Shown piece by piece: positions 34,901 to 51,359 of a stretch of DNA of 64,000 nt; position 1 is the stretch's first letter; every line of letters begins with the position of its first letter. The DNA is from a virus: IMG/VR virus record IMGVR_UViG_3300030117_006323, positions 1 to 64,000 of that record; one strand, written 5' to 3'. A program made the position numbers and the translations under genes. The notes under the pieces are model-generated. The model was not told where the DNA came from. It did not search any database and was given only the letters and a program-made list of their open reading frames with translations.

Positions 34901-37900
34901 GGGTTGAGCAGGATGCATCATGCCTCCACTGCCTAGAGTTTCATTTTGGTAAGACTGGATTCGGTCAAACCCACTACGAACAATGATGTTACCCGGTATT
35001 GTATCGGGGTCAGGCAAACGAATTCGCATGTTGGGTGCTAAACCACTGTTAGCCAATGTCGGTGAAAGCCCTTCTGAAGAACGGTCGCTGACTAATTCAA
35101 AATCACGGATAATTGTACCAAACGGAGACCCTCCTTCAATCACATGAATTTGACCTGTGTCGTCCATTACTTCTACACTTTCAAATTGAGTTTCTTCATT
35201 TGGAATAGTCAATACATTTTGCAACTCACTACCTACGGGTTGCTCTGCCAATTGAGGATGTGACAATTCTTGGGCTTGAATGATTGGGAACATGGCACTG
35301 TTAGTTGATTCAAAGGAGAAGCGGCAATTGCCGTAAATGGTTTCACCCATTGTGTAAGCATTGACACCCGACACTCTCGTAGTGAAAGGTACTGCTCCAA
35401 GCCCACGAGCATTGCAAGCAGGCATAGTAAGATTTCCACCATCCATACGTTTCCATACAATGTGCTCAATCGTGAAGTTACGGGCCGGAGAGCGAGCCGC
35501 CCAATAATTCCAAGGCTCCAAATCATCAGGCGGAGTGGCTGTTGTCCCTGATACATTACAATTTACAGAGAGGCTGTTTTTATCTGCATGTAAGCGATTA
35601 CTGTAAACGCTGCTTTCATCCCAAAATAAATCGCCTGTCGGTACTGCACAAGATGTCAATAACGACATCTGGCTCGCTGCTGTGACACGACTGTGCCAAT
35701 GTGATTCAGTACCTACGTTATTGTAACTAGCCGTGTTGGTGGGTTGTGTTTGCCCTGTGACAATTTGTGCCTCTACGTTAGGACCGGCGTTAGCAGGGGC
35801 CACATAACGGTCTAGGTTGAATACTTGGTCTGCCACTGCAATAGTACCACCAAACTCTTGAGTGTTCGATACACCACTCTTCACTTGTGCTGCATATAAC
35901 CAATCGCCTACACCCTTGGTACCATCTCTATCTGCTTTAGCAATCAACGCCAACTCTGATTCATACGTGACAGCCACTAAATGGCGAGGCGAAAGTCCTT
36001 GTGGGCAAACTGAATTGTATGTGTAATTCATAGTGCCTGATTCTCTGGATACAGGGATGACCGAACCTTGGCAAGTCGATGAAGCACCGTAAGGCGAGAA
36101 GCCCAAATATGGATGCCATGCACCCAAACCGGCTGCGTAAACCGCAGTAGATGCATCATCAGGATTTCTGAGGTCTAAACTGTTGAGGTAAGAATATCGT
36201 TCTCCGTGCCAACCGATTGCTCCGACCGCGCGAGTTCGGTCAATTGCATCCATCAATCCATTGAAATGAACTTGGCACATGTGATTTTGACTATTTGCTC
36301 CACTATTGGTTCTACCATTGTTGAAAATATGGGCACCTGCTTTTGTCCAAATGTAAACAGTTGCCTCAGCCTTAACCGCATTTACAGTAGAAGCAGTTGC
36401 TGCTGTGGCAGTATCTACAACACTTTCCTCCAGTTGTTTTGTGCCACCACGATTAACATCCAATGTCACTTGGAGATGGCCGGGGTTAGGCACAGTCATA
36501 GTATGGTACGGGGCATAAACAGCAGTAGCGCCTACACTATACGAAGCGACTCTTGCGGCACCGGAGCCATTGTCATTGCCACCTATTCCTACTCTCAACC
36601 AACCATAACGAGGTAATGGGGGTAAATCTGCTCCGTATGGATTCAGAAGGTTCAATCTGTAATTTGTCCCACTACCTCCAATCTGTTCATAGAAATCTGG
36701 GTTCCCACCTTCGCCAGCCATTTCCATTGCTGTGAATGCCTGCCAACCATAACGGTCTTGTTTGTGCCCTGTTTGGAAAGATGGTAAAAACGTACCACCG
36801 ATTGCTTTCAATGGGTCTCGGCCCGGCCATTCGTTGATTGAACAAGATAGAACAGCGGCCAACTCTTCTGCATTTTGTACTCTTGTGGCGTCTACAATGA
36901 CGAACTCTTCGGTAGAGTATGCACTTGTTGCACCATAGGAAGCAGCCAACAAACCGCTTACACGGAATGCACTAGGGTGTGATTTTGCAGTTCCATTGTG
37001 TGTCACTGTCCCGCTGTCTTTGTAATGAGGTGCATTGATGAGTACGTGTCTATCAAGGAAATGCCCACCGGGATGATACCCTCCATCCATGTGCCAGATA
37101 AAACCTGCATGCCGTAGTGAACTACCGATTAAAGAAGTGGGAGCGTAATCAAATGGGTGGGCGTATGGTGGCGGTGCATAACTGCCACTAGTGAAATGAG
37201 AACCGTAATACAATCCATCGTAAGGAGTTTGGTCGTATCCATGCACTGAAGCAGCAGACCGAACATTCGGTTTTCCTTGTGCAGGTTCCCAATTGTCAAC
37301 ATAATTCCAACCTTTTGCATTTCCAATTTGGAAATTAGCAGAAGGAGGTGTCAAAGTACCACCGCTGTGACGCCCATTAACATCACCGCTGGTCAAAGTG
37401 TTTGGTGTGAATTCACCAGCAGCACCTGACAATGTCTTAACTGTGTCTTTGCCTAAATTTGGTTGAATTGCTGCATTGTTGTGAGGGAAGGCTTGACCGG
37501 GGCCGAACACAATGTAAGTTGTTTTTCCACTGCTAGATGCATCGTGGCTGTACCTAGAATGAGAATGTGCAAATCTTAGAATCACAGGGCTGGGTATTGT
37601 GACCTTTGTGATATTGGCTCCTGCCCCGTATCCGTAATCAGAGTCCGAAGCCATGCCTGTTGTACCTGTTCTTGAGTTGTTACCCGCATCTAAATCGGGA
37701 GACAGAATACCATCTTGATTGTAGAAAGGTGGATTGTTTTCACCCTTGTGGTTATCGAGATAAGGTGTCCCGGGGAACATAGCCAACATGGCCGCACAAT
37801 CTACCAAACAATAGGAAGTAGATTTCTCCCCGATATTTTGTAGCCCCGCGCTACCTGTCGGCCCCTCTGAATACGGATGAGTGTAGAAATCACTGTAATC

Positions 37901-40900
37901 ATTCTGTGTGCCGTCATTGACATCCATAACTACACCACTGAATCCACCACCGAAATAGACAGGGACGCTGTGGTCAGGGCTATCTCGCCCGCCCCTGAAG
38001 TAAACTAGAGGTTCACCGTATGAATTACCGGACCTTCTTATCCCATCGAATGCAATTGTATCTGCAACAGAGCCGTAAGTCGAAATGACACAATCGTTGT
38101 TTGCGGTTTCAAAGGCTTCAATATTCGCCTCAAAGTTATCAGATACAGCACCACCTGTTGCGCGTGATTTCCACATTAGGAATAATTCCGGGTCTGTGGC
38201 ATTTCGTGTACTTTCAGCAATAACCCAATCCTTATCGTTTAGCCAATATCTACGGCGCTCACCCCAAGAATCAGCATTAGCGGAAGCAGGAATAGCCATG
38301 TGCCAAAGATAACCTGTGCCACTGGCTGCTCCAACTTTGATTGTCCGTGGATTAGAACTGGTATCAATTGTCGTAGAATCGCCGTCAATCAGTGCAGTTC
38401 GATTTTCAATCATAGGCAAGATGTAATCTCCGGGCTTGTCCACATAACGTGCTCCTCGTAGATTCTGCCTCCATGTGGTCACATCAACAGCATTGTTCAT
38501 CGTATCGACTAAAATGGGTGTGGCTGTATTCGCGTTGGTTCCTCTCGATTTGGTACGGAGGTGTAATACTGTCTCAGGTAAATACCCACATGCAGTACGC
38601 TCACCGGCTGTCAATTGATTAACTGACATAATTGCAGCATTTGTGCTACCACTGATACCCCAGTCTTTGGATAGTGAAGATTCAAACAAACAACGCAGTG
38701 GTGTAATATCGTGGTTTTGGCTATGTGCGCGCACACGGATGGCACCCGCATCCACGCCCCACTCACCGAGTGTGCGACCATCTGCTGCTCTCATATTGGT
38801 ACAATCAAATGTTGTGGCACTATCAGAATTAGGGTCATCCATATTGATAGCGAAATTAACAGCCGCTGCTATGACCTCATCTGTAAGTAATGTGGTCCAC
38901 CCAATCCGAGGGCTGATAATCAAACCACTATCACCGTTCGGTAAAGCAGTATTCCCGGTTACACCGTAGAACTTGTGTGTCCCACTTTTACTACTATGAG
39001 TACGACCTGTGTAAGAAAACGTCAATCCAGTTTCCGCTGCTGTTCCGGGTTTACTGGTTTGGAAAACACCGGCATCGGGGAATCCTAGATAGCCCAAAAT
39101 ATCATCGTGGCTGTGGGTGCCACCACTATGATATGGGTCTGGTAATTCGATTGTCACTGTTGTTCCGCTAACACTGACGTTATCAATTTCAATTCCTACA
39201 TTCGGGCAAGGGAATGGTTGCCATTTGTTCCCAACCCAAGTCGCAGTGCCTACCATAGACTCTGTTTCCAACAATCGCCCTGTGGCTTCTCCAATGCCCC
39301 ACATGTGTTTCCCGATTGTGAATCCACCTGACCCACAATCACGGTCATCGAACCAAATACACACTTCTTGGTCGATTGTAGGAGGTAGTGTACTGTTGTC
39401 GTAGGAGAAAGATTCGCCGAATTCAGAATAAATAAAGCGCAATGTGTGGGCTCGCCCAAGATGGTCAGTCAAACGAAGACCATACAATTGATTGCCAATA
39501 GCATCATCTTGTATTTCAGCAGAAGGAACATGTCCTTTCTCCACACCTGTATCATCAGGTGTAGTGTAATCTACTTCTGTCAAAGTGCCATTTTTACCAT
39601 AAGCATGTAAGTATCGAGTATTACCTTCTTTGCCCATGCCCCAAGGTCCTGCTCTAGGGCTAAACCCGGGCACACCAGAAGCAACTAAACCACCAAAATT
39701 GATGCGTGCTTGGGCTCTAGTTCCTAGCCGTAACCCTTGTGTCAACACAGAATCCGGGCTTTGGCTTTCATAGGAATCTTGGTAAACAGTGTTCTTGGAA
39801 TAACCACTAACACCCATGTTGTTCGCATTGGTGATAGCCGCATCTGTTTTTGAGCCATAATTCAGATTGTTCATGAATACATCTTCTGGCTCTTCTGGAG
39901 GTAGATATTCATTGAGAGTTGTAATCGGAGCAAAGGGCCTGCCATCTTTGTTGATAGGCATAGGTGCTGGATGCATATTTTCCATTAACACTTCATCCGG
40001 TCGGCACCAGAAATTACGGAATCGGCCACCATGTCCAATCAAGAATTTCGGTCGATAGGTACTCTGACCTTTGGAATTGTCTAACCATAGGCAGAAATTG
40101 CGCCCACTAGCACCGGGGACTGTACTATGGATGACAATGCTGAACCCTTCGTTTCCGTTTCCTTCAGCATCTTCTACTACACGGCCTAAGTGAGCACGCA
40201 CATAACCCATGTGTGACCCTCTATCGTGACTAGCAAATGCTTTGTCGATGTCCCAAAATGGAGCAGGGTCGTGTGTGCTACCCGTAGGAGAGAAATCGGC
40301 AGACAAGTGGGGTGCACTTGCATCAATCAAAGAGGGCTTGATGTTATCTCTCGGACCTTGAAGCACTTTGGAATGGCCGCCATCTTGGAAGATGCCGACT
40401 TTTTCTAAGCCCAATCGAGCGCTTTCACTTGGGTATTGGTTGGCAGGTCGGCGTGCATGAGTCCTCCCTTTAGGTGCTCCCGCTTGATTGATTAGACGGA
40501 CGACTTCTTGAGCCGCCGCTTGGATGTCCGTCACACCTTCCTTCACGCCAACTTCACCGAGGTCGATGGTCAGTCTTCGGACAAAATCCATTTGTGTCCA
40601 GTGGGATAGATGTTGCAAACGTGCCTCTTTGTGTGAGGTCAAATCTAGTGTTTCAGTTCTCTTGCCTTTGAGGCACAAGAATGCAGGTATAGCACGAGTC
40701 CCCTCCGGTGTATCAAAGAATGTGGCGTATTCTGCTTCGACTGCTTCACCAAGTGCTTGGAAGTGCCGATGTTTGAGAACAGCACTAGATGGACAACATG
40801 TCTCTTCATGTGTCCTAGGGGGTGAGCCGTCACCTACACAACCCCCTGCTTGAGGATGGTGGCCGTGGTCACCGTGTGCTTCAGTAGCAGCCCGATAATT

Positions 40901-43900
40901 CCATTCAGAATCATGGCTAAATGCTGCTTCCATAAATTCTGATGCTGCTGTAGGTGCCACGCTTTTATCTTCTGAAGGTTGGCCATTCTGTACATCTAAT
41001 TGGGTAGAATGATTCGCACTTGTAGGAGAGCCGTTAAAAGCGGCTGGGCCACTGACAAGATAACTGGCTGGAGTCCCAAACTTAGGTGTAGCGGGAGAAG
41101 ATTGTACTTGCATGTGAATATCATGCATAGCGATGAACTCTCTATCATGCGCAGTATCGTAGAGCAAAACGCGGGCAAATCCCGCTGTGGCTTGGTACGG
41201 GTCAACAAATGCGACAACAGGGGCACTATCATCACGCCCTAATTCTGCCCAATTCAATTCAATTGTTTTGTTGATGTGTTGTACAAAGTTGGTAGCGGTT
41301 TCTAAACAATCATTGCCAATCAAGAAGTTCTCCATTGGGATACTGTCTCTTGGTCTGTTAGCCAACGCTCCTTCGCCACCATTGAAATGCCGAGCAACTA
41401 ATGCTTCGTTGAATGTACCTCTGCTCTTGCAGAAGAGTCCTTCAACGGCATGAGGATTAGTGTAGTGCATGTTCATCCAAACTGTGTCGCCATCACGCAA
41501 ACCACCAGCCGCATACGGATGCAGCCAAGATGCATTTAGAGCGACATCTTCTTGCACTTGCGGATAAGCACTTGCAGAAATATTCCGGTAATCTTTGATG
41601 AACACTTCATCTCCAGCAGCAGGTCCCCAACCGCCAGATTTGGATGAGGCTATAATTGTCAATGTGTTTCCGTTAATGGTTTCGTATTGAGCGGTTTGTT
41701 CAGTGCCTGAAGAATCAATATACGCAACACGATACCGATATTGATAGGTCCCGCCTACTTTGTACAAGTCATCCATACCTGTCAGTGGGAAATCAGAAGC
41801 ATCTGTAAGAAGTAATGATGTACCACTCCAACTAATTACAGTTGAACGTGCTCTTCTGTTCTTCGTGCGTGGAAGGTGTGGGTTCTCTCTTGGGCCTGCT
41901 TTGAATTCTACTGCACTAACGTACTGTCTGAGACCGTAGTCAATGTTACCACCTTGTGTTTGGACATTTGCCCGGTCATAGTAGTAAGGCCGCCGTCCTT
42001 CATAGGCTGCACTCAGAATAGTAGGATGATTGCGGATGGCAGGGAAATTTTCATCGAATACACCGGGCCCCGGATACAATGCCATACCAACTTCATGTGT
42101 AGCCAAGAAATTTTCAGACATGCATTGGTCTAACAAATCATCATCGACAATTAAATCGTTCCCGCTAATCGAAGAATAGAGAATCCACTCTCCGTTGGGT
42201 AAGAATGCCCGTTGGTAAATTACAGCACCCGGTCTAGCACTGGCGGTTGCCCCAGTGTCTGTGTAATTGTTGAGTGCTGCCGCAGTAGTAGTCGAAGTTT
42301 CAAACATCCCTCCTTCTTCTACAGCCAGATAACCATGTGTGTCAATTCTGAAAAGTTGCTTGATATGTGTTCCTTTTCTCAAAGCGTTTTGGCCCTTGTT
42401 ATTTGCATGTGCACCGTAAATAGTACGGTCTGTCGGCGTATTGTCATCACAACGTCGCCCCACAGGATTTGGGGCCCATGTATGAGCAGTGTACGTACAA
42501 TCAACGTGAATTTTGAGCGAATTGTCAGGACCGGGTGAAATACAGGCTTCTTTGTTTTCAAAGAACAAATTTGGGAAAAGTGGTATTTCGACAAGAGCGC
42601 GAGTACCAGCATATTGAGTCCCTAATTGGTAATCGTGACTTACACTATCCATACGTTGGAACATACGGTCATTGATAGTAGAGCCATCATTACAGACAGA
42701 ACTCTCGCCAAACTCACCATCAACAAATAACAGAGTACCTGCGACAACACCGTTGTTAGCGACCCAATCGGCGAAGGTATCTGATTCAGTACCATTTCCA
42801 TTTAAGAAAGCAGCCGTTCCACCAGCACTAGAGCCACTGAATGTGAATACTGTGCCGCTTTTTGACGCATACAGAGCACTAGCCCCGTTCTCTAGATACA
42901 CTCGACCGACTTTCGGGAAGCAATACGTGCCCCAAGAAGCCAAATCACTTGAGTCGTTGTTGAGCGGTATAACCGTCAGAGTAGTAGAAGCAGTTGCAGA
43001 TATTTGCACCGCACAATCGCGCCGCGTATTCCATCCTAGGCGCGTGAATGGTGATGGGTCATAAGTCGGCTTTGTATTGATTGCACCTTGGCCGGGACCA
43101 CCTAGAGTCACAGTAACAACAGGAGAGCCGGGCATGACCTCTTTGACAACGTGTGAATCAGGGGCCCCTGAGCCAATGAAATCTACAGTTTTAGAAGAGG
43201 CATCTTCTGTAAGACCGACACAAGTCATTACAAGTGAATCTTCTCCATCAGAATCAGAATATGATTGTACGCGCATTTTAGAGACCAAATTACTGATACG
43301 GAATGTTGTCGATATATCCATTGTAGAGAGATTTTCTCCAACTGGCCATACTTTCAACAATTGCGTTGTTCTTGAACGGTCTGTTGGTTGGATGACTATT
43401 TTACTTGTTTCTTTCAATTTTCTATTCGCCAATGGACCTAATTCACCCGCAATGATGTCGAATGTTTCGTAAAGGTGGGATGAAATATCAGGGTCAGCAA
43501 TATCAAAAACACCAGCCCCCGTGTTACTTACAAAGGGCTGAAGATTATACACACCATATTCAGTGCGTTCCCCATAATTGTTGCCCGAGATTGTATCTGG
43601 AGTCATTTCTAGTAAATGGAAAACTGATGTTTTGGTTGAATCAGTGTGTTGAGCGGCAATTACTTGTGGCCCTCTGTTTGGAGGGTCGGTGGAAGTAAGT
43701 GGTGTGTAATTAACAGGTGTACGGCTTTCATCCAATTCATCTTCAAAATCAGAGCCTTCGTGGCCACTTGATTCAATGCTTTCTATCAAACCAGCAGGAT
43801 GATTACCACTATGTATTTCTCTAAATTCTAAAACCCCACCGGGTGAATACAAGAATGTCTCTTTCGCAGCATTGGCTAAATCAGAAGCAACCACATCATA

Positions 43901-45976
43901 CAAACGATTACCAGAGACTGGGAGTGTAATATCAAGAGATGGGACTGTTTTTTCTACAATTAGACATGGGGCCGTTAAACCCATACTTGCGCCTGTAATA
44001 TCAATTGCGTTGTAATACACATGAATAAAGGGAGCCATATTATCGTCGGCTAACGTAGGGACAGCCAAAACAGCAATGCGGCTTTCGCTAATTGGGCGAA
44101 GATGGGACTTTCGGATTGCATCAGTAGTCCCTTTTAAATTTGAAGGATATGGGCCTTTGAGCAAAAATGGCAAACAATCAAATTCTCTTTCTGTAATGGG
44201 TTCGCCCAAAAGTACAGAAGTCAAAACTTTGTCACTAGTAGATAAGCCACCGATGGCTAACATCTCGCGTCCATTGCCTGCACTCAAACCGTTACTTACC
44301 ATTTGGAAAGCAAAAGAGCCTGCTGTGAATTTAGCGACGGGAGCATTACATACATGCTGATACATATCAACTCGTGATTGCAATGGGACCGATTGTACTT
44401 CGGTGCGACTAGAAAAATCATAATAGAATTCTGATAAATCAGCGGAACCATCTGTCGATTGATGGACTATTTCTTCATTGGCAGGAGGCAATACAGATAA
44501 TGCAGAATGCCCTTTCACGGCCATAACACAATGTCTTGCTGTATGACCAATTTGAAAACCTGTATCTAGTGAAGCAGGCCAAACAGCAGCGAAAGGATTC
44601 TTTGGGTCTGTTGCTGTTGTCGCCATGCGTTTTGAATAAACTAAACCGTGTGAACCAATGGCTTCGTTCAAAACCATTTGACCTGTTCTATCGACAACTT
44701 GAGAACCATAATGAGGAGGTTGGTAAGGTTTTCCAGTCCCGCTGTCTAACAGTATATCTCCGACAACCAATACAAAATGGTCATCTGTATTTGCTGTCCG
44801 GCTGTGTAATACTCCTCTACGTGCGCCACCTATACCAAAATCCAAATGAATACTTTCGACACCAATGACTCCTGATGTCCCATTTACAGAAAGTAAGCGC
44901 AAACGCTCAGGTGGTTTGGCATTTGGTGTTTTGTTCAACGGATTTAGACCATCAGGGTTGAACAAAATATTGTACGGAGTATGAGGGATGAGTAAAGTCC
45001 CTGCCGTTCCCGGTGTAGACACATAGTCTGCCACTTCATAATTGCCACTAGAGTAGGGACCAGATGTATCTATCAAATTGATTTGAGAATTCGTAGATGC
45101 ATCGTATGCCTTCCCAGTAATGCTGGCTAAAATTGCTTGAGCACTAGCAGCAGGAATGGTAATTGTCTTAGTTGTTCCATCGCTAGCAGCCGAAAAAGCG
45201 CCACTTTGGTAAATTGTCTGATGGACATCTACGGGCTCTTCAAAACGATATTGAGCAATTAAATTAGTAGATTCAGGCGGGCTGACGGGTGACAGAATGT
45301 TATCTGTAAAACGAGAATACAATCTGATTTGCTCAATGGTACCTCTAAATTCTCCTCCTTTACCGCCAATATGGAAATCACCTGCATTATCTCTTAACAA
45401 CATTCTTGCATCAGCGGCGAATGTTTTTTTGGCGACAAGATTCCCATTGATGTAAATTGCCAACTGTTGAGATTGCATTACTGCTACAACATGTAATAAT
45501 TCTCGATGATTGATATTTAGTCCCGTGGCATCGGTTGATGATGTGTATGTGTTGTATGAACCATGGATGTCAGCCCCATGTCGTGGGAATACAAGCCCCG
45601 ACCATCGTGTAGGGCTTGCATCTGAGTCTTGAGATGCAGTCGTAAGATGCTCTAAAGTCCCATCAACGGTTTCGACAACTAATTTGGCAGGACCGGGTTG
45701 TTCAACAGAGCCTACTTTAAACTCAAAAACACCATCTTGCGAAAGAATAACACCACCACAATCTGGTCGTATCCAAGCGCTAACAACCAATTGCCTGTGT
45801 CTTAATTCATGCTGAGATGTTTTGTAACCATGTGCACTTTCACCTACGACAGAAAGCGATGATTTTCCACCGGGAACATCTACATAGGTTCGTGTGAAAG
45901 AAGCCTTTGGGATAACAATTGAGTCTGTAATTCCGTTAAAATACAACGCATGGTTTGTGTTTTTACGCAAAGACAA
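28931..45976 (-). CDS. Giant virion protein, 5,681 aa, lectin-like domains at both ends
   Basis: Single open frame of 17,046 bases without any stop. Residues 1-245 form a LamG/concanavalin-like domain (ALYFNGITDSI, RQLVVSAWI, HVVAVMQSQQLAIYINGN, GTIEQIRLYSR). A second one lies near the C-terminus at about 29560-30295 (GLALWLKSDSL, QWDDLSGNSRHF, MAEIIQYNRALSTTEIEQVEAYLASKYGI). Two copies of a ~100-residue module sit at about 31560-32325. The rest is low in Lys and rich in Gly, Ser, Thr, Asp, His and Pro. TTG start 45976 with GAGGTG upstream. It lies in the tail block, so a fibre, spike or surface adhesin is likely. It could also be cut into pieces after synthesis. Confidence 0.85.
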   Translation of the reverse strand: MSLRKNTNHALYFNGITDSIVIPKASFTRTYVDVPGGKSSLSVVGESAHGYKTSQHELRHRQLVVSAWIRPDCGGVILSQDGVFEFKVGSVEQPGPAKLVVETVDGTLEHLTTASQDSDASPTRWSGLVFPRHGADIHGSYNTYTSSTDATGLNINHRELLHVVAVMQSQQLAIYINGNLVAKKTFAADARMLLRDNAGDFHIGGKGGEFRGTIEQIRLYSRFTDNILSPVSPPESTNLIAQYRFEEPVDVHQTIYQSGAFSAASDGTTKTITIPAASAQAILASITGKAYDASTNSQINLIDTSGPYSSGNYEVADYVSTPGTAGTLLIPHTPYNILFNPDGLNPLNKTPNAKPPERLRLLSVNGTSGVIGVESIHLDFGIGGARRGVLHSRTANTDDHFVLVVGDILLDSGTGKPYQPPHYGSQVVDRTGQMVLNEAIGSHGLVYSKRMATTATDPKNPFAAVWPASLDTGFQIGHTARHCVMAVKGHSALSVLPPANEEIVHQSTDGSADLSEFYYDFSSRTEVQSVPLQSRVDMYQHVCNAPVAKFTAGSFAFQMVSNGLSAGNGREMLAIGGLSTSDKVLTSVLLGEPITEREFDCLPFLLKGPYPSNLKGTTDAIRKSHLRPISESRIAVLAVPTLADDNMAPFIHVYYNAIDITGASMGLTAPCLIVEKTVPSLDITLPVSGNRLYDVVASDLANAAKETFLYSPGGVLEFREIHSGNHPAGLIESIESSGHEGSDFEDELDESRTPVNYTPLTSTDPPNRGPQVIAAQHTDSTKTSVFHLLEMTPDTISGNNYGERTEYGVYNLQPFVSNTGAGVFDIADPDISSHLYETFDIIAGELGPLANRKLKETSKIVIQPTDRSRTTQLLKVWPVGENLSTMDISTTFRISNLVSKMRVQSYSDSDGEDSLVMTCVGLTEDASSKTVDFIGSGAPDSHVVKEVMPGSPVVTVTLGGPGQGAINTKPTYDPSPFTRLGWNTRRDCAVQISATASTTLTVIPLNNDSSDLASWGTYCFPKVGRVYLENGASALYASKSGTVFTFSGSSAGGTAAFLNGNGTESDTFADWVANNGVVAGTLLFVDGEFGESSVCNDGSTINDRMFQRMDSVSHDYQLGTQYAGTRALVEIPLFPNLFFENKEACISPGPDNSLKIHVDCTYTAHTWAPNPVGRRCDDNTPTDRTIYGAHANNKGQNALRKGTHIKQLFRIDTHGYLAVEEGGMFETSTTTAAALNNYTDTGATASARPGAVIYQRAFLPNGEWILYSSISGNDLIVDDDLLDQCMSENFLATHEVGMALYPGPGVFDENFPAIRNHPTILSAAYEGRRPYYYDRANVQTQGGNIDYGLRQYVSAVEFKAGPRENPHLPRTKNRRARSTVISWSGTSLLLTDASDFPLTGMDDLYKVGGTYQYRYRVAYIDSSGTEQTAQYETINGNTLTIIASSKSGGWGPAAGDEVFIKDYRNISASAYPQVQEDVALNASWLHPYAAGGLRDGDTVWMNMHYTNPHAVEGLFCKSRGTFNEALVARHFNGGEGALANRPRDSIPMENFLIGNDCLETATNFVQHINKTIELNWAELGRDDSAPVVAFVDPYQATAGFARVLLYDTAHDREFIAMHDIHMQVQSSPATPKFGTPASYLVSGPAAFNGSPTSANHSTQLDVQNGQPSEDKSVAPTAASEFMEAAFSHDSEWNYRAATEAHGDHGHHPQAGGCVGDGSPPRTHEETCCPSSAVLKHRHFQALGEAVEAEYATFFDTPEGTRAIPAFLCLKGKRTETLDLTSHKEARLQHLSHWTQMDFVRRLTIDLGEVGVKEGVTDIQAAAQEVVRLINQAGAPKGRTHARRPANQYPSESARLGLEKVGIFQDGGHSKVLQGPRDNIKPSLIDASAPHLSADFSPTGSTHDPAPFWDIDKAFASHDRGSHMGYVRAHLGRVVEDAEGNGNEGFSIVIHSTVPGASGRNFCLWLDNSKGQSTYRPKFLIGHGGRFRNFWCRPDEVLMENMHPAPMPINKDGRPFAPITTLNEYLPPEEPEDVFMNNLNYGSKTDAAITNANNMGVSGYSKNTVYQDSYESQSPDSVLTQGLRLGTRAQARINFGGLVASGVPGFSPRAGPWGMGKEGNTRYLHAYGKNGTLTEVDYTTPDDTGVEKGHVPSAEIQDDAIGNQLYGLRLTDHLGRAHTLRFIYSEFGESFSYDNSTLPPTIDQEVCIWFDDRDCGSGGFTIGKHMWGIGEATGRLLETESMVGTATWVGNKWQPFPCPNVGIEIDNVSVSGTTVTIELPDPYHSGGTHSHDDILGYLGFPDAGVFQTSKPGTAAETGLTFSYTGRTHSSKSGTHKFYGVTGNTALPNGDSGLIISPRIGWTTLLTDEVIAAAVNFAINMDDPNSDSATTFDCTNMRAADGRTLGEWGVDAGAIRVRAHSQNHDITPLRCLFESSLSKDWGISGSTNAAIMSVNQLTAGERTACGYLPETVLHLRTKSRGTNANTATPILVDTMNNAVDVTTWRQNLRGARYVDKPGDYILPMIENRTALIDGDSTTIDTSSNPRTIKVGAASGTGYLWHMAIPASANADSWGERRRYWLNDKDWVIAESTRNATDPELFLMWKSRATGGAVSDNFEANIEAFETANNDCVISTYGSVADTIAFDGIRRSGNSYGEPLVYFRGGRDSPDHSVPVYFGGGFSGVVMDVNDGTQNDYSDFYTHPYSEGPTGSAGLQNIGEKSTSYCLVDCAAMLAMFPGTPYLDNHKGENNPPFYNQDGILSPDLDAGNNSRTGTTGMASDSDYGYGAGANITKVTIPSPVILRFAHSHSRYSHDASSSGKTTYIVFGPGQAFPHNNAAIQPNLGKDTVKTLSGAAGEFTPNTLTSGDVNGRHSGGTLTPPSANFQIGNAKGWNYVDNWEPAQGKPNVRSAASVHGYDQTPYDGLYYGSHFTSGSYAPPPYAHPFDYAPTSLIGSSLRHAGFIWHMDGGYHPGGHFLDRHVLINAPHYKDSGTVTHNGTAKSHPSAFRVSGLLAASYGATSAYSTEEFVIVDATRVQNAEELAAVLSCSINEWPGRDPLKAIGGTFLPSFQTGHKQDRYGWQAFTAMEMAGEGGNPDFYEQIGGSGTNYRLNLLNPYGADLPPLPRYGWLRVGIGGNDNGSGAARVASYSVGATAVYAPYHTMTVPNPGHLQVTLDVNRGGTKQLEESVVDTATAATASTVNAVKAEATVYIWTKAGAHIFNNGRTNSGANSQNHMCQVHFNGLMDAIDRTRAVGAIGWHGERYSYLNSLDLRNPDDASTAVYAAGLGAWHPYLGFSPYGASSTCQGSVIPVSRESGTMNYTYNSVCPQGLSPRHLVAVTYESELALIAKADRDGTKGVGDWLYAAQVKSGVSNTQEFGGTIAVADQVFNLDRYVAPANAGPNVEAQIVTGQTQPTNTASYNNVGTESHWHSRVTAASQMSLLTSCAVPTGDLFWDESSVYSNRLHADKNSLSVNCNVSGTTATPPDDLEPWNYWAARSPARNFTIEHIVWKRMDGGNLTMPACNARGLGAVPFTTRVSGVNAYTMGETIYGNCRFSFESTNSAMFPIIQAQELSHPQLAEQPVGSELQNVLTIPNEETQFESVEVMDDTGQIHVIEGGSPFGTIIRDFELVSDRSSEGLSPTLANSGLAPNMRIRLPDPDTIPGNIIVRSGFDRIQSYQNETLGSGGMMHPAQPVQGITDTFTDSAKGPRGWPTWENKGWEHISQDADDSSLTAGETRLAFPDQHSKGWDDHTDGNPLETAYEQHDRTLFFHVTKMGHTGSSRNPTAISSGSIVSDPLTFSSSGTNTVTAGSSPNAAVWKIDSEKTADGRWFARVEDATGQGALFSYTNISSANFTGVVFDPDFSTFISGKTGLVIKPSWYIPAGSNRFFAARRLRDHSEISGNSPDAKRLDWTETNPVTLLTKPKLTPMPIPRMGHHYVTPSMMVMPGHFSHPAYERAFNLHYGCRSSSKTAIDDDTSLAITNIPVRDPLVWFSTPSSALRPSDIHGGAFTLLTETKVAYDGYGIAASKGAAGTANAAGKHIIYLEAAGTYSLKPHFPDPIEVGAYQIIIQPNLHKQQFSGFHRNGAATALPDGSAVELTGQQVNLVIGLEHDAAGSTGAVGLLLAEATMADTRGCEIFINEVMLDLDPDPGSQFTNIPTLGLYNPIGVNENTSPPFSRRSLPYRPGTFERATPGYTLTVPWWAILHRSKPTSSIASGYVFNEWHKPDDYYQFCRATYGAVGCQITLAGYPSIYPDIYENHFRARSLNPHCVVLSLSSTNRTITVDNNELFPVDSFYGEVLEYIDNEGSRQTATYTHRTGTKSHSLEVGPTKFENVIAVTPAFWTKLAAAEILRLSRPYDTTPAGSIFQASTTSAITRVLPQTYHGSRDTNSLHQADAFLCLWHPNLGRPYTFYSDTGRTFYTNTGAADTPQDKKGLNHIPEHFETIHYHDFLYSISKGPFSFDMKGQAPASDGTAQNASDLTNHQGDGSRQYVGFWPGGSRGGPAGSRLDGYGYIKAGWGDNDYGMECTPYSYDTSTGGIDQLLLASINIGASKPSAGNTIVITSAAKTTKTYTAVSGSATITSNQFSVDNTNADVAESLLLAIKHASGHNGEIDVTRASGVLTLTDTPSEVKNQSLIVSNLANTTVTQFSGTHTLLSTLEHDRQYCFGYRFAVRPPFNRPRWSPGIRGIDEVEETAATASITFTGDPTTDRTIILISTDGTTKTYTAKNTAAFASNQFDANGGAAANATSLKGAVEHASGHNGKILVADDGAGTLTFTQNVAGSAGNTVIVSTLDNTTHTSFTGGHSSSAEYNMTGYSHGPFVAQDSRTQASGGWKENADAGLSGAADIVWNATNAGILERQTQATAMLGNDQTMRQVRYSHGRRMTRPFGCPTRTVRNASTVRKKYPGDDSGLGIDEIAEAHRFYLVDWWGNTRGEDVRRFPARGFGIRPAWDPEEAYTDDAYANLKPSATDLWHDDGASYKTEQEGTTNSTNNSDMTRVDWFNPKRAQRIGDRGDGRGMRWPTVFNESLLHDISEDLLPAGLVLSHSTAEPPFTTGYLRPANSAPASTEIPRGISARLGVAQDGLLKPEANVSEKVETVSGTFTIGGVTLADPMSRSAPRIGLDVETIEAISGGQETDHIAMSTQAHSLHTDKEVGQRLSLRGAFNAGSTTLTHFDLTTPTWATQPDAAVVRLSNAHAMWPLGGTYVLEVRNYAQPFDDSGWGQQMPLSGLALWLKSDSLDLAGGAAVTQWDDLSGNSRHFTQSTSSLQPSYVASDSDFNSKPVVNFDGSDKLALNFDAGLNTNEFTVFIVTAVSSDTDAIEAIIDSRSSSPVTRSGFNFYADMRNTGGNNNWEFWVGADSSWKALSASGDSASTSGVPSILVGQVSGGNGAGASATQLFRVDGVQVGTQSANFYKSTADASQLGTNATSSYQLNGDMAEIIQYNRALSTTEIEQVEAYLASKYGIGSTSTFKSWNPSNPYQDGPVVSSTAGTHNAVSGTQMNYFDKTVRFLLRPSRVLDNRHVEIFRADSVTKSSTPQDGNDAYRSTSGGKYGLFNYDMPNARTGTVTPVSPPYSPSYTIDSAAPTLSLSSGPNIPGADVSGYSVALDKTVARILITENTLEHFRSDAPRRRFYSTDADGSSITRRDYSVQPRHSQTLHAKGEEGTASYNTGDHSGE
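31560..32325 (-). repeat. Two related ~100-residue modules inside the giant protein
   Basis: Both copies share the order TKTYTA, SNQF, a helix with HASGHNG, then LTLT or LTFTQ, and a [ST]xLxNTTxTxF-like end (VSNLANTTVTQF and VSTLDNTTHTSF). Copy 1 is about 31985-32325, copy 2 about 31560-31885. This is a domain known from phage tail fibres and adhesins, here as an imperfect tandem. Confidence 0.65.
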
Positions 45977-45985
45977 AATAGCACC

Positions 45986-47539
45986 TCAGACGATAAAATT
46001 GATTGGCAAGAACGTAAGTTGGTATCTATACACACTTTCACCAGCATCGTAATTAACAACAAATTGTTTGATAGTTCCTTTGATGAAATTAGTGGGCGTA
46101 AAGTCAGTAGCATCAATTTCTTTATCGTAAGCAGTGATGTTATTTTCAGGTCGCTTCAAACGGTGAATATAGGATGATGCTGAGTTAAAAAACTGCGCAG
46201 GATTGCCTGTAGGGGCCAAGAAAGACCTTTGAGTATATTTTTGACCTGATGCTGCTGTTACCATGGATTGATATGGAACTTGGATTCCAGTGATATACGA
46301 ATCAGAATCTTGTCTACTCTGCATGTTATTCATTATGTTCTGAGTTAAAAGAGTCCCTCCTACGCCAGCGAGCATGCCCAAGCCCGCCATACCCAAACTC
46401 AGTGTGAGCATAATTGAGAATGCTGGAGTCGTCGCGAAACGCGCCATAATGTGATTTATAGCAGCCACTGCCGATGCCGTATCAGCATGACCATCGTTAT
46501 TCATGTTGTTACACAAAGCCCAAATTTCATACACTTTGTCGCCAGCAGACAAGTCATTACCCCCAGCACCAGTCGCCGTAACTGGTCTAGGTCCTGAAAT
46601 AGAAGAGCCGCCGCCAGTAAATGTTGTAATGTCAGGTTCTTGTAATGGGCCGAAAATGCCCGGGGGTCTAGGATTCAGAATATTTTGCCAAGTGGGTGAG
46701 CCTCTACCCCAAGCCCCTGTGTCCTTAAATTCGACATTTAGAATGCCACCGACACCATGGCTACCCTTTGAAGTTTCATTTGAAGTTGTAGCGACAAAAT
46801 GACTCCCCGGCCTTTCTGCTTCACTTATTGTACTCGGATGTGTTGTCGAGTTGATAGCAGATGCAATTTTCGTTGTAATTTGCGCAACTGTTGTAGCACC
46901 TTTGATACCGACTAAAATCCACTTTTTACAAAGACCGCCCTGATAGGAAGCGCTGACTGGATAAGTTTTCACCGCAGTGCCAATTAAATGGTCATCTGCA
47001 TGCCCATTTCCATCAGCGTAAATGTAAGCACTTGAGGAAAAATCAACACCAGCCACTAGATGAATAAAATGTGTGCCCCCGTTTTTGTCTATAAATCGGA
47101 GTCGTTGATGAAAAACATCTTGGCCATTTACCTGTCTCAACACATTGTTGGCAGGATTTGATGCCCCCCAATTATTGCCAGTATCAGCCGCGAAATCAAG
47201 TGCCGCAGTCTCACCGTTATGCCGAGTGTAATTTGGACTACCAGTCCACCATTCGCCGCCTGATGCCCCAATAGAGAAATTGATAGATGCTTTCGCTTTA
47301 GGTTCAGCAGCGGCTATAGTTGTAGTCGATGTAGTCGTATCATCGGCAAAAAATCCTTCTATTACCAGTGCGGCAGTAGCCATGTTCAAATCCATACCAA
47401 CTCTTGTGTTTTCTGAAAATGGTAAAGGCACACCTCCAACTGTGCGGTCCACGCTCATGACCATTGATTCACCCATCAACGGAATTTTATCACCGTTAGA
47501 TTGTACCAAGTAAATTGGGAAGCCGCTGCCCTGTGTCAT
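45986..47539 (-). CDS. Virion protein with one membrane-like segment, 517 aa
   Basis: Starts MTQGSGFPIYLVQSNGDKIPLMG, a beginning typical of tail distal or baseplate proteins. The C-terminal third has a hydrophobic stretch (FSIMLTLSLGMAGLGMLAGVGGTLL) that could be a membrane-penetrating or membrane-inserting segment. Ends RYQLTFLPINFIV. It lies between the tape-measure-like and giant genes, so tail tip or penetration is plausible. ATG 47539 overlaps the previous stop by ATGA. Confidence 0.7.
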   Translation of the reverse strand: MTQGSGFPIYLVQSNGDKIPLMGESMVMSVDRTVGGVPLPFSENTRVGMDLNMATAALVIEGFFADDTTTSTTTIAAAEPKAKASINFSIGASGGEWWTGSPNYTRHNGETAALDFAADTGNNWGASNPANNVLRQVNGQDVFHQRLRFIDKNGGTHFIHLVAGVDFSSSAYIYADGNGHADDHLIGTAVKTYPVSASYQGGLCKKWILVGIKGATTVAQITTKIASAINSTTHPSTISEAERPGSHFVATTSNETSKGSHGVGGILNVEFKDTGAWGRGSPTWQNILNPRPPGIFGPLQEPDITTFTGGGSSISGPRPVTATGAGGNDLSAGDKVYEIWALCNNMNNDGHADTASAVAAINHIMARFATTPAFSIMLTLSLGMAGLGMLAGVGGTLLTQNIMNNMQSRQDSDSYITGIQVPYQSMVTAASGQKYTQRSFLAPTGNPAQFFNSASSYIHRLKRPENNITAYDKEIDATDFTPTNFIKGTIKQFVVNYDAGESVYRYQLTFLPINFIV

Positions 47540-48069
47540 ATATACCGACCTCGCGCTTTCCCTGTACCCATATTCAAACGAGTCTCTTGCTGGATAAGTC
47601 CCGCAATTTCTTTCGCTAGGGCTCTCTTATCCGTTCTATCAGTCATACCGTTAAGATTGAATGTCATGTTAAACACGCTACCACCACCTCCCATTTTGTG
47701 GTTAGGAGTGATAGAACCACTACTACTAGGAGTAAACATTTCTGGTCCTTTTTCACCTACAATGTAAGGCGTATGAGCAGAAACTGGCCCACCAGCGGCG
47801 CGCTTTCCCGGGATTATGCTACTTACACCGCCGGTAAATGCATCCCATTTATCGCCTACTGCATCCTCAAATTCTTGCCACTTCTCTTTGAGTGCATCAA
47901 TTTCATTCCCAATAGAGATAAAAATGTTCTCAATTTCCGCTACAACATTCCCGACGAACGATGTAACCCCTTCAATTGCACTTTGGATACCTGAAACCAT
48001 TCCAGCAGCAGCCTCAGCGGCTCCTTGGAAAAAACCAGCAATAGCCGATGCTGCGGCAACAGTGACCAT
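47536..48069 (-). CDS. Tape-measure-like protein, unusually short, 177 aa
   Basis: The C-terminal half has AAGGPVSAHTPYIVGEKGPEMFTPSSSGSITPN, the VGE-x-GPE-x-F-x-P pattern of phage tape-measure C-termini, followed by FNMTFNLNG and a helix EIAGLIQQETRL. The N-terminal ~75 residues are hydrophobic and helical (IAGFFQGAAEAAAGMVSGIQ, FVGNVVAEIENIF). It sits just after the tail chaperones, the standard tape-measure position, but at 177 residues is far shorter than tape measures of long-tailed viruses. ATG 48069 overlaps the chaperone stop by TGATG. Confidence 0.72.
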   Translation of the reverse strand: MVTVAAASAIAGFFQGAAEAAAGMVSGIQSAIEGVTSFVGNVVAEIENIFISIGNEIDALKEKWQEFEDAVGDKWDAFTGGVSSIIPGKRAAGGPVSAHTPYIVGEKGPEMFTPSSSGSITPNHKMGGGGSVFNMTFNLNGMTDRTDKRALAKEIAGLIQQETRLNMGTGKARGRYI

Positions 48070-48673
48070 CAAATATCCTCTCCTTCAAACCAAGCAGAAT
48101 AGTCGAGGCTTACAGTCTCTCCGCTTTTCGATGGGGTTGCTTCATCGCGCACTCTTTTTCGTTCATCTTGGATGGCCGTTACCCATCCGTGTAATTTTTC
48201 TACAATATTCGGTGGCATGTTCCATACTTCCATTGGTGAGATGTGAAAATGTTGTGCTATGATAATCACTATTGATTCAAAGTAAAGTTCAATATTTATT
48301 TTGTCTTTTTTGGCTTTACCCGAGAGGAACCTTTTGACCCGGTTTTTGTAGTATCCCGAAACCCCAAGCCTTCTCCTACCATTTCATCTGGCCTAGGGAG
48401 AATATTTGCGATTTGGTCACCAATGTAAGAGTCTAAATTTAACAACTCTTCAATTGTGAGAGAAGGATTAGTATCGACAATCCAATGTGTAAAAGCGTGC
48501 TTCCAGTATGCTTCAAATTGGAAAACGGCTTCTCCTTTGACGAACTGTAGCATTTCTTGCATTGCTCTTTGAATGTCAAAAAATGTAAGACTCTTCACAG
48601 TAACTTCCATTACAACATCAGGGTCATCAGGATTCACCTGAATTTGATGCTTGGTCTTACTCTGTTGATTCAT
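48069..48673 (-). CDS. Tail assembly chaperone, long form made by -1 frameshift (about 201 aa)
   Basis: The frame of the 48296-48673 gene reaches a slippery heptamer A-AAA-AAG (48311 to 48305). Slipping back one base there leads without a stop into the next frame (GAC AAA ATA AAT ATT GAA ... GTG), which continues to TGA 48071-48069 and encodes IIIAQHFHISPMEVWNMPP and WVTAIQDERKRVRDE. This is the classic lambda G/GT arrangement of tail chaperones, in the right place between tail tube and tape measure. A separate start at GTG 48269 has no ribosome-binding site. Frameshifting itself is predicted, not measured. Confidence 0.75.
48296..48673 (-). CDS. Tail assembly chaperone, short form, 125 aa
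   Basis: Begins MNQQSKTKHQIQVNPDDPDVVMEVTVKSLTFFDIQRAMQEML (ATG 48673, overlapping the SAP gene end by 17 bases) and ends SRVKPKKTK. The size, the mixed beta-alpha start and the basic end fit the short form of phage tail chaperones. In the product, the final KPKKTK codons carry the slippery A-AAA-AAG. Both forms would be needed in a fixed ratio for tail assembly, as in known phages. The open frame extends upstream, but no better start was seen. Confidence 0.8.
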   Translation of the reverse strand: MNQQSKTKHQIQVNPDDPDVVMEVTVKSLTFFDIQRAMQEMLQFVKGEAVFQFEAYWKHAFTHWIVDTNPSLTIEELLNLDSYIGDQIANILPRPDEMVGEGLGFRDTTKTGSKGSSRVKPKKTK

Positions 48674-49064
48674 TATCTGGCTCTTGTCCACTATTCTCCT
48701 CTGACTCACTTACTGCTGCCTCCTCTAGGGGCGTGTCGGTAACAGCCGCATCAGCGGGGGCTACCTCTTCTTCATCGGTAGCCGCATCAGCGGGGACCTC
48801 TTCAGAAGTTACTGGGTCTGCATCGTCTAAACGCAAACGCTGGATAAGTTCGGCTTTCTTGCCATTCGTAGATAGATTGCGGTGTTTTAGGGCCGCTTTG
48901 AGTTCTACTACAGTCATATCATCATAACCATCATGTTCTACTTGAAAAGGGTTTCTAGACAAAGGATTTTCAGGATTGAAAATTTCATCTTCAATGGCCT
49001 TAGATGCGTACACTCTAGTGTGCACTTCTTTGGCTGCTCCCGGATTCATGTAAGTTCTAGCCAT
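48657..49064 (-). CDS. SAP-domain virion protein with acidic repeated tail, 135 aa
   Basis: Residues ~50-78, MTVVELKAALKHRNLSTNGKKAELIQRLR, are a clear SAP motif, a DNA-binding helix-extension-helix. The C-terminal 55 residues are Glu/Asp/Ala-rich, with two related units (EVPADAATDEEE, VAPADAAVTDTP) encoded by a tandem repeat at 48745-48795. A SAP protein beside the tail tube gene could bind DNA in the connector or act in packaging, but this is inference. Confidence 0.8.
   Translation of the reverse strand: MARTYMNPGAAKEVHTRVYASKAIEDEIFNPENPLSRNPFQVEHDGYDDMTVVELKAALKHRNLSTNGKKAELIQRLRLDDADPVTSEEVPADAATDEEEVAPADAAVTDTPLEEAAVSESEENSGQEPDNESTE
48745..48795 (-). repeat. Tandem repeat in the SAP protein gene
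   Basis: GCCGCATCAGCGGGG is found at 48745-48759 and again at 48781-48795, 36 bases (12 codons) apart, so the reading frame is kept. The flanking bases also match (CTACCTCTTC and ACCTCTTC). Confidence 0.8.
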
Positions 49065-49073
49065 AGTCTCATC

Positions 49074-51359
49074 TCAATATGTAAACATGGCGTCACGGGC
49101 CAAAATACGTACATGTTTAGGCATAATTTTCAAAGAAGCACGCAAAACGCCTTTATCTTCAGGAATGGGCAATGGGGCTTCAGAGATGAAGAAATCATCT
49201 ACTACAATAGTCATGGCTTCATAGTAAGGTGTACCAGTGAGACCAGTTTTACCTGAACCTTGTTTGACAAATTTCAAGACAACGCCGTCAGCATTAGCCC
49301 CTGTGGTTGTGTTGAACTCTTCTGCTGTGCGCATGTAATGCCAAAAGATAGGGTCATCAATGAGGATTTCCATGTTCATATCAAAAGATTGTTTTCCTTC
49401 GACAGCGCATCTCGGGTTACGTGTTCCTGCAAAAGGTATCTGTTCTGTTGAAAATGTATGACCTGCTGCTCCAGACATACCTGTGCTCTGTGGAAGAGGA
49501 GCCCCATTGATGACATGGTAATACTCTACTCCAGTGGTTCCGCTCAAAGTAAAGTTTGTCACTTGAGCGACTGTAGTCCCTCCGATTGTGATTGTTCCAT
49601 TGTAGAAGAAATAGGGCTTTTCTCCATATTTGATGATGCCAGATTCTTTTCGCCCTAACTCAGTGTTAGCCGTGTTTTCAAACATACGGTGCGCTTTGAG
49701 CCGGTCACCTCTACTGGCCGCAGTAGCGTGTAAACGACCAGTATCTGTGTAACACATAGCCGCATTAAAATTGACAGACAATTTGAGAGCAGCATCTGTA
49801 TCAGCAGACATTGACCAATTGGTGACTTTACATCCTTTGAAAACTCGCGTCAAAACTTTGGAATCAGTAGCAGAGCCGGGGACAAAGGTCGCATCTTCTG
49901 AACTGTAAGAGCCTGCTTCACGTGTACGTATAGAAGTTTCAAGACAAAAAGAAGGGGTTGTATCTCGGCTGAAAATAACGTGGTCCACCGCATCTGCCAC
50001 GTATCTATCGCTCGTAATGTGGGGGCTCATCATTGCGTACAAATCAGTAGGATTGGCTAAATCTACCAAAGTACCTCCGCCAATTGTGATTGTGTTTGGC
50101 CCCGCAGTCGTTGCTGTGACTTTACCAATTCTTGTGCCATCAGATTTGTACAATTCAGTGCCATCTGAAATAATCGCAGTTGGGTCTGTGCTAACTGCTA
50201 TTGTACCCGTGTGTCCCGCTGAAGGAGCGGCGGCTGTGTTAATCCCTGTGTCATAAACCGAATTACGATATTCAAGGAAGTGCACTGCTCTACCTGAGTC
50301 GTGAGGGAAATCGAGAGGACCATCTAGCCACAATATGTCACTTGCTGTATCGACTGCTACAATACGTCTAATTTCAGAACGGACTGTGGCATCAGCATGA
50401 GGAGTATCTATCGTGACATTCAATAGAGCACCGGCACTTTTCTTACCGAAATACAAATTGCTACTATCTGCTACACTCAAATCATCTTCTCTGTGCTGAT
50501 GCAAAGGCACTAAATTGTCACCAGAAGAGCCCGCTGGCTCTTGGATATACACATAATGACCGGCGGCAACTGCACCAGTGTCAAATGTCGTTTTTGAGCC
50601 CAATTCAACTAGAATATGTGATTGTCCTGCTGCGGTCTCTGATGATAGCGTACTTTTCATATTCGCGCCTTTGTGGTAAGATGTGGGTTCGCTTGCCATT
50701 TTACCCAAGCAATAGTACAACCAACGAGGACTATGCAGAATTAAATCTATTGACCCGCCTTCATTTGTTATTCTACTAGGTGCTTGTACAACTGTATCGC
50801 GCCCAATGCCGACCACATGGTATCTTTTGATTTCCATTCTTGTTTCAGGTAAATTTACAGTCCCAGCGATTCCTACAAATTGGTCTGTTAAAGTAGATTC
50901 TTGTGTGGTTTTAGGGGTAGTATTGAAAATTGTATTTGCGACATCGGCGGATGGTACTAAAAATGGCCCAATCGTAATAGAATCACTTGCTCCAGAATTT
51001 GTAGAGGCTGCTGTTTTCAAACGAGGGGTTACTGTGATTGTATTCGATGTATTGCCTATAATAGAAAATTCTCTTTTCGTACTGATGCTATCATCGTCGC
51101 CATAATTAGTGCCACCATTGATACGCAATGTCGTTCCGACTAACATATTTTCAGGGACTTTGAGTCGATGCGATGAGTCAAACAACCAATGAGTCGTTGT
51201 GCCTGATACACCTGTGAATGTAAGAATGGATGTATCATCGGTGCTACCATTTGTTACTTGGAATTGCAAACCACCAAATGTGCCATGGGGTAGGTATAAT
51301 GCTGATTCACGGCCAAATGTGACTTCGGCTAAATCGCCCTTGTAAACTGTGGATGGCAT
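49074..51359 (-). CDS. Major tail (tube) protein, 761 aa, unusually large
   Basis: ATG 51359 follows AGGTGAAAAAAAT. The region just before the tail chaperones, and the segments DQFVGIAGTVNLPETRMEIKRYHVVGIGRD (short forms VGIAGTVNLPE, RYHVVGIGRD), match tube proteins, which often read this way in their first half. C-terminal pieces VTNFTLSGTTGVEYYHVING and FSTEQIPFAGTRNPR, MEILIDDP and MTIVVDDFFISEAPLPI are beta-sandwich like. Known tubes of this group are 200-450 residues, so there is probably a large insert (about residues 30-140 and 240-450) that would decorate the tail. Confidence 0.75.
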   Translation of the reverse strand: MPSTVYKGDLAEVTFGRESALYLPHGTFGGLQFQVTNGSTDDTSILTFTGVSGTTTHWLFDSSHRLKVPENMLVGTTLRINGGTNYGDDDSISTKREFSIIGNTSNTITVTPRLKTAASTNSGASDSITIGPFLVPSADVANTIFNTTPKTTQESTLTDQFVGIAGTVNLPETRMEIKRYHVVGIGRDTVVQAPSRITNEGGSIDLILHSPRWLYYCLGKMASEPTSYHKGANMKSTLSSETAAGQSHILVELGSKTTFDTGAVAAGHYVYIQEPAGSSGDNLVPLHQHREDDLSVADSSNLYFGKKSAGALLNVTIDTPHADATVRSEIRRIVAVDTASDILWLDGPLDFPHDSGRAVHFLEYRNSVYDTGINTAAAPSAGHTGTIAVSTDPTAIISDGTELYKSDGTRIGKVTATTAGPNTITIGGGTLVDLANPTDLYAMMSPHITSDRYVADAVDHVIFSRDTTPSFCLETSIRTREAGSYSSEDATFVPGSATDSKVLTRVFKGCKVTNWSMSADTDAALKLSVNFNAAMCYTDTGRLHATAASRGDRLKAHRMFENTANTELGRKESGIIKYGEKPYFFYNGTITIGGTTVAQVTNFTLSGTTGVEYYHVINGAPLPQSTGMSGAAGHTFSTEQIPFAGTRNPRCAVEGKQSFDMNMEILIDDPIFWHYMRTAEEFNTTTGANADGVVLKFVKQGSGKTGLTGTPYYEAMTIVVDDFFISEAPLPIPEDKGVLRASLKIMPKHVRILARDAMFTY

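Follow-up and report, generated by a model that had tools for sequence, protein, structure and literature searches.

A conserved G_GGG_TTT element upstream of A_AAA_AAG as the probable -1 frameshift site in the tail chaperone genes of a magrovirus-like archaeal virus

At which point would ribosomes change frame in the overlapping tail chaperone genes of a tailed archaeal virus? The question is raised by a 64,000-nt stretch of DNA (positions 1 to 64,000 of the IMG/VR record IMGVR_UViG_3300030117_006323; hereafter the window), which carries on its minus strand a short open reading frame (ORF), G, and an overlapping ORF, T, in the -1 frame. A sequence-only reading had placed a programmed -1 slip at the heptamer A_AAA_AAG (48311-48305) near the end of G. 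Comparison with related loci points to another site. We consider it likely that a -1 ribosomal slip at G_GGG_TTT (48365-48359, minus strand) yields the fusion protein GT, as in the family as a whole. The basis for this in sequence is formed by the reading frames, the conservation of the element, selection on the T frame, and the lack of a usable start for T. Both the phased G_GGG_TTT and the conserved -1 protein that starts upstream of A_AAA_AAG had been missed in the sequence-only reading.

The G ORF spans 48296-48709 and ends with TAA at 48298-48296. From its likely start, ATG at 48673, it codes for a predicted short tail-assembly chaperone of 125 amino acids (48296-48673, minus strand); GTG at 48709 is a possible upstream start. 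Immediately past a stop at 48386-48384, the -1 frame opens and continues through A_AAA_AAG and into the next gene, up to TGA at 48071-48069, as had been claimed. Its part downstream of the proposed shift (48069-48362, minus strand; VSGYYKNRVKRFLSGKAKKDKINIELYF...WFEGEDI) is ~50-61% identical to the T proteins of loci L023, L102/L163 and L164. A well-supported start of its own is lacking, with no ATG, GTG or TTG in the T frame of the window before GTG at 48269.

The two overlapping ORFs lie between the tail tube and tape measure genes, as membership of the G/GT type requires. The predicted fold of G (mean predicted local distance difference test score, pLDDT, 81) matches tail assembly chaperones in BFVD (HHTV-2, E 2.2e-6; a Bacillus phage, 1.3e-4). 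G can also be aligned with G of HVTV-1 (hhalign E 5e-4, at a probability of just 32%), which is probably its homologue. The G model had no match in the PDB, and the structural matches of the T model were weak, except for one viral protein. Searching the INPHARED phage records with G by tblastn returned no match, and the PHROGs and Pfam searches none that was convincing for G or T. Relative to the first ORF, the second is read in the -1 frame in 87/87 relatives; together with the missing T start and the fold match of G, this upholds the proposal of a -1 frameshift that joins a G/GT-type tail chaperone. Judged by frames, position and predicted fold, the two ORFs are a tail-assembly chaperone pair of the lambda G/GT type, with a presumed chaperone function.

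Of the relatives, 86 distinct loci were obtained when viral contigs were scanned with G and T, and a further search added L164; no relative was found among genome contigs. Element counts refer to 87 aligned sequences, namely the 86 relatives and the window, with L164 assessed separately, and 34 representatives were selected at <80% identity; related loci such as these are non-independent samples. In all relatives a slip element of the form N_NNN_TTT occurs whose final 0-frame codon, TTT, begins 18-24 nt ahead of the G stop. Among the 87 sequences it reads G_GGG_TTT in 56, G_GGT_TTT in 13, G_GAT_TTT or A_GAT_TTT in 13, and A_AAT_TTT in 5; L164 has G_GGG_TTT. The homologous element of the window, which we propose as its main -1 shift site, lies in phase 54 nt upstream of A_AAA_AAG and is the sole phased G_GGG_TTT among the window genes. 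The shift register may be N_NNN_TTT, or one codon earlier in some variants.

Codon choice at the element is tightly restricted. The 0-frame TTT is invariant (87/87 aligned sequences and 34/34 representatives), although TTT makes up 54% of the Phe codons elsewhere. Where Gly precedes it in the representatives, the codon is GGG (21) or GGT (5) and no other, GGG accounting for ~10% of Gly codons. ACT, which can create a stop in the T frame, is never used for the Thr following TTT, despite being the most frequent Thr codon. Stops in the T frame of the relatives are found just upstream of the element (leaving an overlap of down to 34 nt) and never between the element and the G stop. An invariant TTT, restricted Gly codons and avoidance of ACT are what one would expect if ribosomes shifted at a fixed point and then read the T frame.

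The relationship between the two candidate sites in the window becomes clear from its closest relatives, L023, L102 and L164, with T proteins ~50-61% identical; among the viral contigs, no relative exceeds 61% identity in T. These three read CAR GGG GGG TTT and end G with TAA seven codons further on. The window reads TTG GGG TTT and has TCA in place of that TAA, so that its G ORF is 13 codons longer and takes in A_AAA_AAG. In the alignment the T frame is gapless from the residues VS, right after GGGGTTT, through the region of A_AAA_AAG to FHIS. Between the two sites it encodes the family motif RVKRFLS, the FLS core of which is family-wide. The ratio of nonsynonymous to synonymous differences (pN/pS), which covers all the divergence between window and relative, is 0.13-0.15 for RVKRFLS.K, 0.37-0.61 for the whole stretch between the sites, and 0.33-0.38 downstream of A_AAA_AAG. 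Differences between window and relatives in this stretch are concentrated at silent T-frame positions: when the same differences were placed at random, 51, 0 and 77 of 5000 trials (one value per relative) preserved as many T residues. Such purifying selection upstream of A_AAA_AAG indicates that the T frame has been translated there for most of the history of the virus.

Two kinds of potentially stimulatory signal accompany the element. A Shine-Dalgarno-like (SD-like) sequence, GGTAGGAGA, precedes it in the window (48372-48380, minus strand; -7.0 kcal/mol for the duplex with an archaeal-type anti-SD). In the family the SD-like sequence is centred ~10 nt ahead of the heptamer and is stronger than in synonymous recodings (z -1.89 +/- 0.22; negative in 30/34 representatives). 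Downstream, 3' structure has a mean z of -2.2 over the 34 representatives. In the clade of L001, L005, L014, L069 and L120 a two-stem structure begins 6 nt past TTT. In this clade alone, pairs were counted on the structure of L001, a choice that favours that structure: 15 cells showed two-sided compensation, whereas shuffles gave 4.4 and slid controls 3-5. L114/L145 and L023/L164 have hairpins of their own. RNAalifold found almost no common structure in the 3' regions because the structure is clade-specific. No 3' structure was found in L108, L060 and L073, among others, and about half of the representatives are without a strong one and keep the upstream element. As a separate observation, the two-stem RNA of L001 (6352-6398, within coding sequence) has perfect outer arms, GGCGACG/CGTCGCC, and similar RNAs occur in L002, L014, L069 and L120.

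Slippage, together with its efficiency, the part played by the tRNAs and the role of the products as chaperones, is inferred as follows. Most ribosomes would translate G to the TAA at 48298-48296. A minority would slip back by one base at G_GGG_TTT and continue in the T frame, so that the output would be G plus a smaller amount of GT. The slip would be promoted by the SD-like sequence ~10 nt upstream (at a slightly shorter distance in the window); some relatives would add a stem-loop ~6 nt downstream. The tRNA-Gly on GGG could re-pair perfectly one base back, and the A-site TTT would face GTT. Since tRNA-Phe would not re-pair perfectly there, we favour one-tRNA slippage at G_GGG_TTT, in the P site and while the A site is empty. 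As in lambda, both G and GT would attach to the tape measure protein and recruit tail tube subunits.

Several observations weigh against a slip at G_GGG_TTT in this virus. The invariance of TTT and GGG may partly reflect coding in two frames. The element does not conform to the canonical X_XXY_YYZ, which is found only in relatives with G_GGT_TTT or A_AAT_TTT; non-canonical sites are, however, common among annotated phage frameshifts (PMC10885494), so that G_GGG_TTT is compatible with membership of the G/GT frameshifts. The window has lost the Gly codon, GGG, that directly precedes the element in the closest relatives; the SD-like sequence lies a few nucleotides nearer to the slip site than in the family, and 3' structure is absent (z +0.7). 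The last point leaves its element tenable, since relatives also lack such structure. Furthermore, a canonical heptamer, A_AAA_AAG, is present 54 nt downstream, and a very recent change of site would be compatible with pN/pS values that cover all the divergence between window and relatives.

These points lead to the alternative of site turnover, in which the old signal has degenerated and ribosomes have come to slip at A_AAA_AAG, or at both sites with two forms of GT. As the sequence-only reading had stated, A_AAA_AAG (48305-48311, minus strand) is in the codon frame of the short ORF (..CCA AAA AAG ACA AAA TAA, with the X_XXY_YYZ phase). It is canonical, lies within the overlap and is unique in the window genes. 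Neither the G stop of its relatives nor the 3' hairpin of L023/L164 survives in the window, whose element has also lost a Gly codon, and with closest relatives ~50-61% identical in T, a recent switch is conceivable. On the other hand, GT made by a slip at A_AAA_AAG would omit RVKRFLS with its family-wide core, and purifying selection on the T frame is no weaker upstream of A_AAA_AAG than downstream. The context of A_AAA_AAG is weak (SD-like signal -3.9 kcal/mol, z of the 3' fold about 0), and a missing 3' structure has not cost about half of the representatives their upstream element. A comparison with relatives had been named in the sequence-only reading as a possible refutation: the heptamer is absent from the equivalent place in 87/87 related loci, and in the three closest ones G has already ended there. 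A_AAA_AAG was thus rejected as the family site, and for the window we regard turnover as unlikely.

Chance may suffice to account for A_AAA_AAG. From codon use, 2.5 phased copies are expected in the 43 non-overlapping ORFs of the window (20,513 codons), and 1 was observed. AAA makes up 58% of the Lys codons of the window, and the chance of the heptamer is ~0.34 given Lys-Lys-Asp in the -1 frame. As it arises whenever both Lys codons are AAA, a chance origin is plausible. The heptamer, private to this virus, is either fortuitous or secondary, or else possibly a recent recruit. A combined history seems to us doubtful as well: the family would use a non-canonical slip in the P site only, with help from the SD-like sequence and from a 3' stem-loop in particular clades, and the window virus, having lost the stop, would be acquiring A_AAA_AAG as a second, canonical site, either to make two forms of GT or in the course of a move from one site to the other.

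T might instead be made independently of G, by re-initiation or by a coupled start at an overlapping NTGA, so that no frameshift would be needed. Most representatives have an ATG, GTG or TTG in the T frame near the G stop, and relatives which end G with TGA mostly show an overlapping NTGA start for T, which must also be counted against slippage. But TGA after A, G or T creates such a start automatically, and the T-frame residues ahead of it, G[VF]Y[EQ], are conserved, with ACT avoided there. Moreover, 10/34 representatives have no ATG, GTG or TTG in the T frame near the junction, and the first start in the window, the distant GTG at 48269, would remove RVKRFLS. Independent initiation was therefore rejected as a general route, there being no usable start in these 10 representatives and the window, and we consider it very unlikely. 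Transcriptional slippage on the G-run, which has 6-7 G in many relatives, was rejected as highly improbable, since the frames are the same where no long run exists, as in the window (GGGG) and in relatives carrying CAAGGAGATTTT or ACTGGAAATTTT, and the SD-like and 3' signals favour a translational event.

The record that holds the window comprises 91,170 bases. The reading of the virus as archaeal-type is borne out by the encoded TFB, thermosome-type chaperonin, RFC-small-like protein and family B polymerase (PolB), and by a capsid protein (MCP) with 34% identity to those of HVTV-1 and HCTV-1. The record thus contains both archaeal-type information genes and a Druskaviridae-like HK97 capsid protein. 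Magroviruses are alike in having ~90 kb, PolB, RFC-S, TFB, a chaperonin, and replication and structural genes in opposite directions (PMC10768690). They differ in that no Pfam match to MCM helicase, archaeal primase or PCNA was found anywhere in the 91 kb record, which may be incomplete and may encode divergent proteins. For this reason the virus is placed as magrovirus-like, without family assignment. Its gene content indicates a magrovirus-like marine archaeal tailed virus with marine group II archaea as the presumed host.

The gene order is tail tube, G, T and tape measure, with a small SAP-domain gene between tail tube and G. The tail tube-like protein (49074-51359, minus strand, two genes upstream of G) has 761 amino acids and matches Pfam Phage_tube_2 (E 1.1e-5, slightly short of the Pfam cut-off). 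The SAP-domain protein (48657-49064, minus strand; Pfam E 3.5e-13) is encoded immediately upstream of G and overlaps its start; in the relatives inspected, G is preceded by a similar reading-frame end. The tape-measure-like gene adjoining T (47536-48072, minus strand; PHROG tape measure matches, E 1.7e-12) codes for only 178 amino acids as listed; the three closest relatives have 403, 428 and 450, and most of the family falls within 190-450. A tape measure of 178 amino acids predicts a tail of ~27 nm, if the usual 1.5 angstrom per residue applies. Elsewhere on the minus strand, the tail region contains one hypothetical ORF of 5681 amino acids (28931-45976), and an ORF of 1617 amino acids (59118-63971) upstream of the protease gene, without a match above a Pfam cut-off, may code for a portal protein of very large size or for a fusion. 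No Rfam family was found in the window.

That such frameshifting is new to archaeal viruses, as the sequence-only reading implied, does not hold. According to passages in PMC5009743 and PMC8211752, -1 GT frameshifting has been reported for HVTV-1, HCTV-1, HCTV-2 and HCTV-5, and Hardycor1 has the -1 slippery sequence G_GGA_AAT (PMC7911831). Joined tail assembly chaperones are annotated in HVTV-1, HCTV-1 and HCTV-5. These haloarchaeal siphoviruses are likewise archaeal tailed viruses in which G and T overlap, in the -1 frame, close to the gene for the tape measure. Their hosts are haloarchaea, in contrast to the marine group II archaea presumed here, and G_GGA_AAT of Hardycor1 is unlike the element in most of the present family. 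Lambda G/GT (G_GGA_AAG) agrees in gene position, -1 direction and the combination of a short and a long chaperone, but has a different shift element and gave no sequence match, the function of the present pair being assigned by analogy. The -1 frameshift of E. coli dnaX uses A_AAA_AAG with an upstream SD and a 3' hairpin. Here, too, an SD-like sequence ~10 nt upstream, a slip heptamer and, in some relatives, a 3' stem-loop are combined, and the heptamer proposed first is identical to that of dnaX; the family heptamer is, however, N_NNN_TTT, the window is without a 3' stem-loop, and A_AAA_AAG is not conserved.

The International Committee on Taxonomy of Viruses (ICTV) profile of Aoguangviridae/magroviruses marks the tail assembly chaperone (TAC) on the map and describes no shift site (PMC10768690); a 2023 survey of magroviruses does not mention frameshifting (PMC10160649), and no description of a magrovirus shift element was found in the literature searched. 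GT frameshifting in archaeal tailed viruses is thus already known and would be extended here to the magrovirus group, with an unusual heptamer and, in one virus, a possible second site; the lambda-type G/GT rule would apply to this group as well. The case also illustrates that the best-looking heptamer in an overlap can mislead as to the site, and that relatives correct the choice. Tested cases of programmed -1 frameshifting in archaea are very scarce, a 2021 review counting one (PMC8211752). With its several natural variants of the heptamer, and with or without a 3' stem-loop, the element kept by dozens of marine archaeal viruses would provide a comparison set for slippage by archaeal ribosomes.
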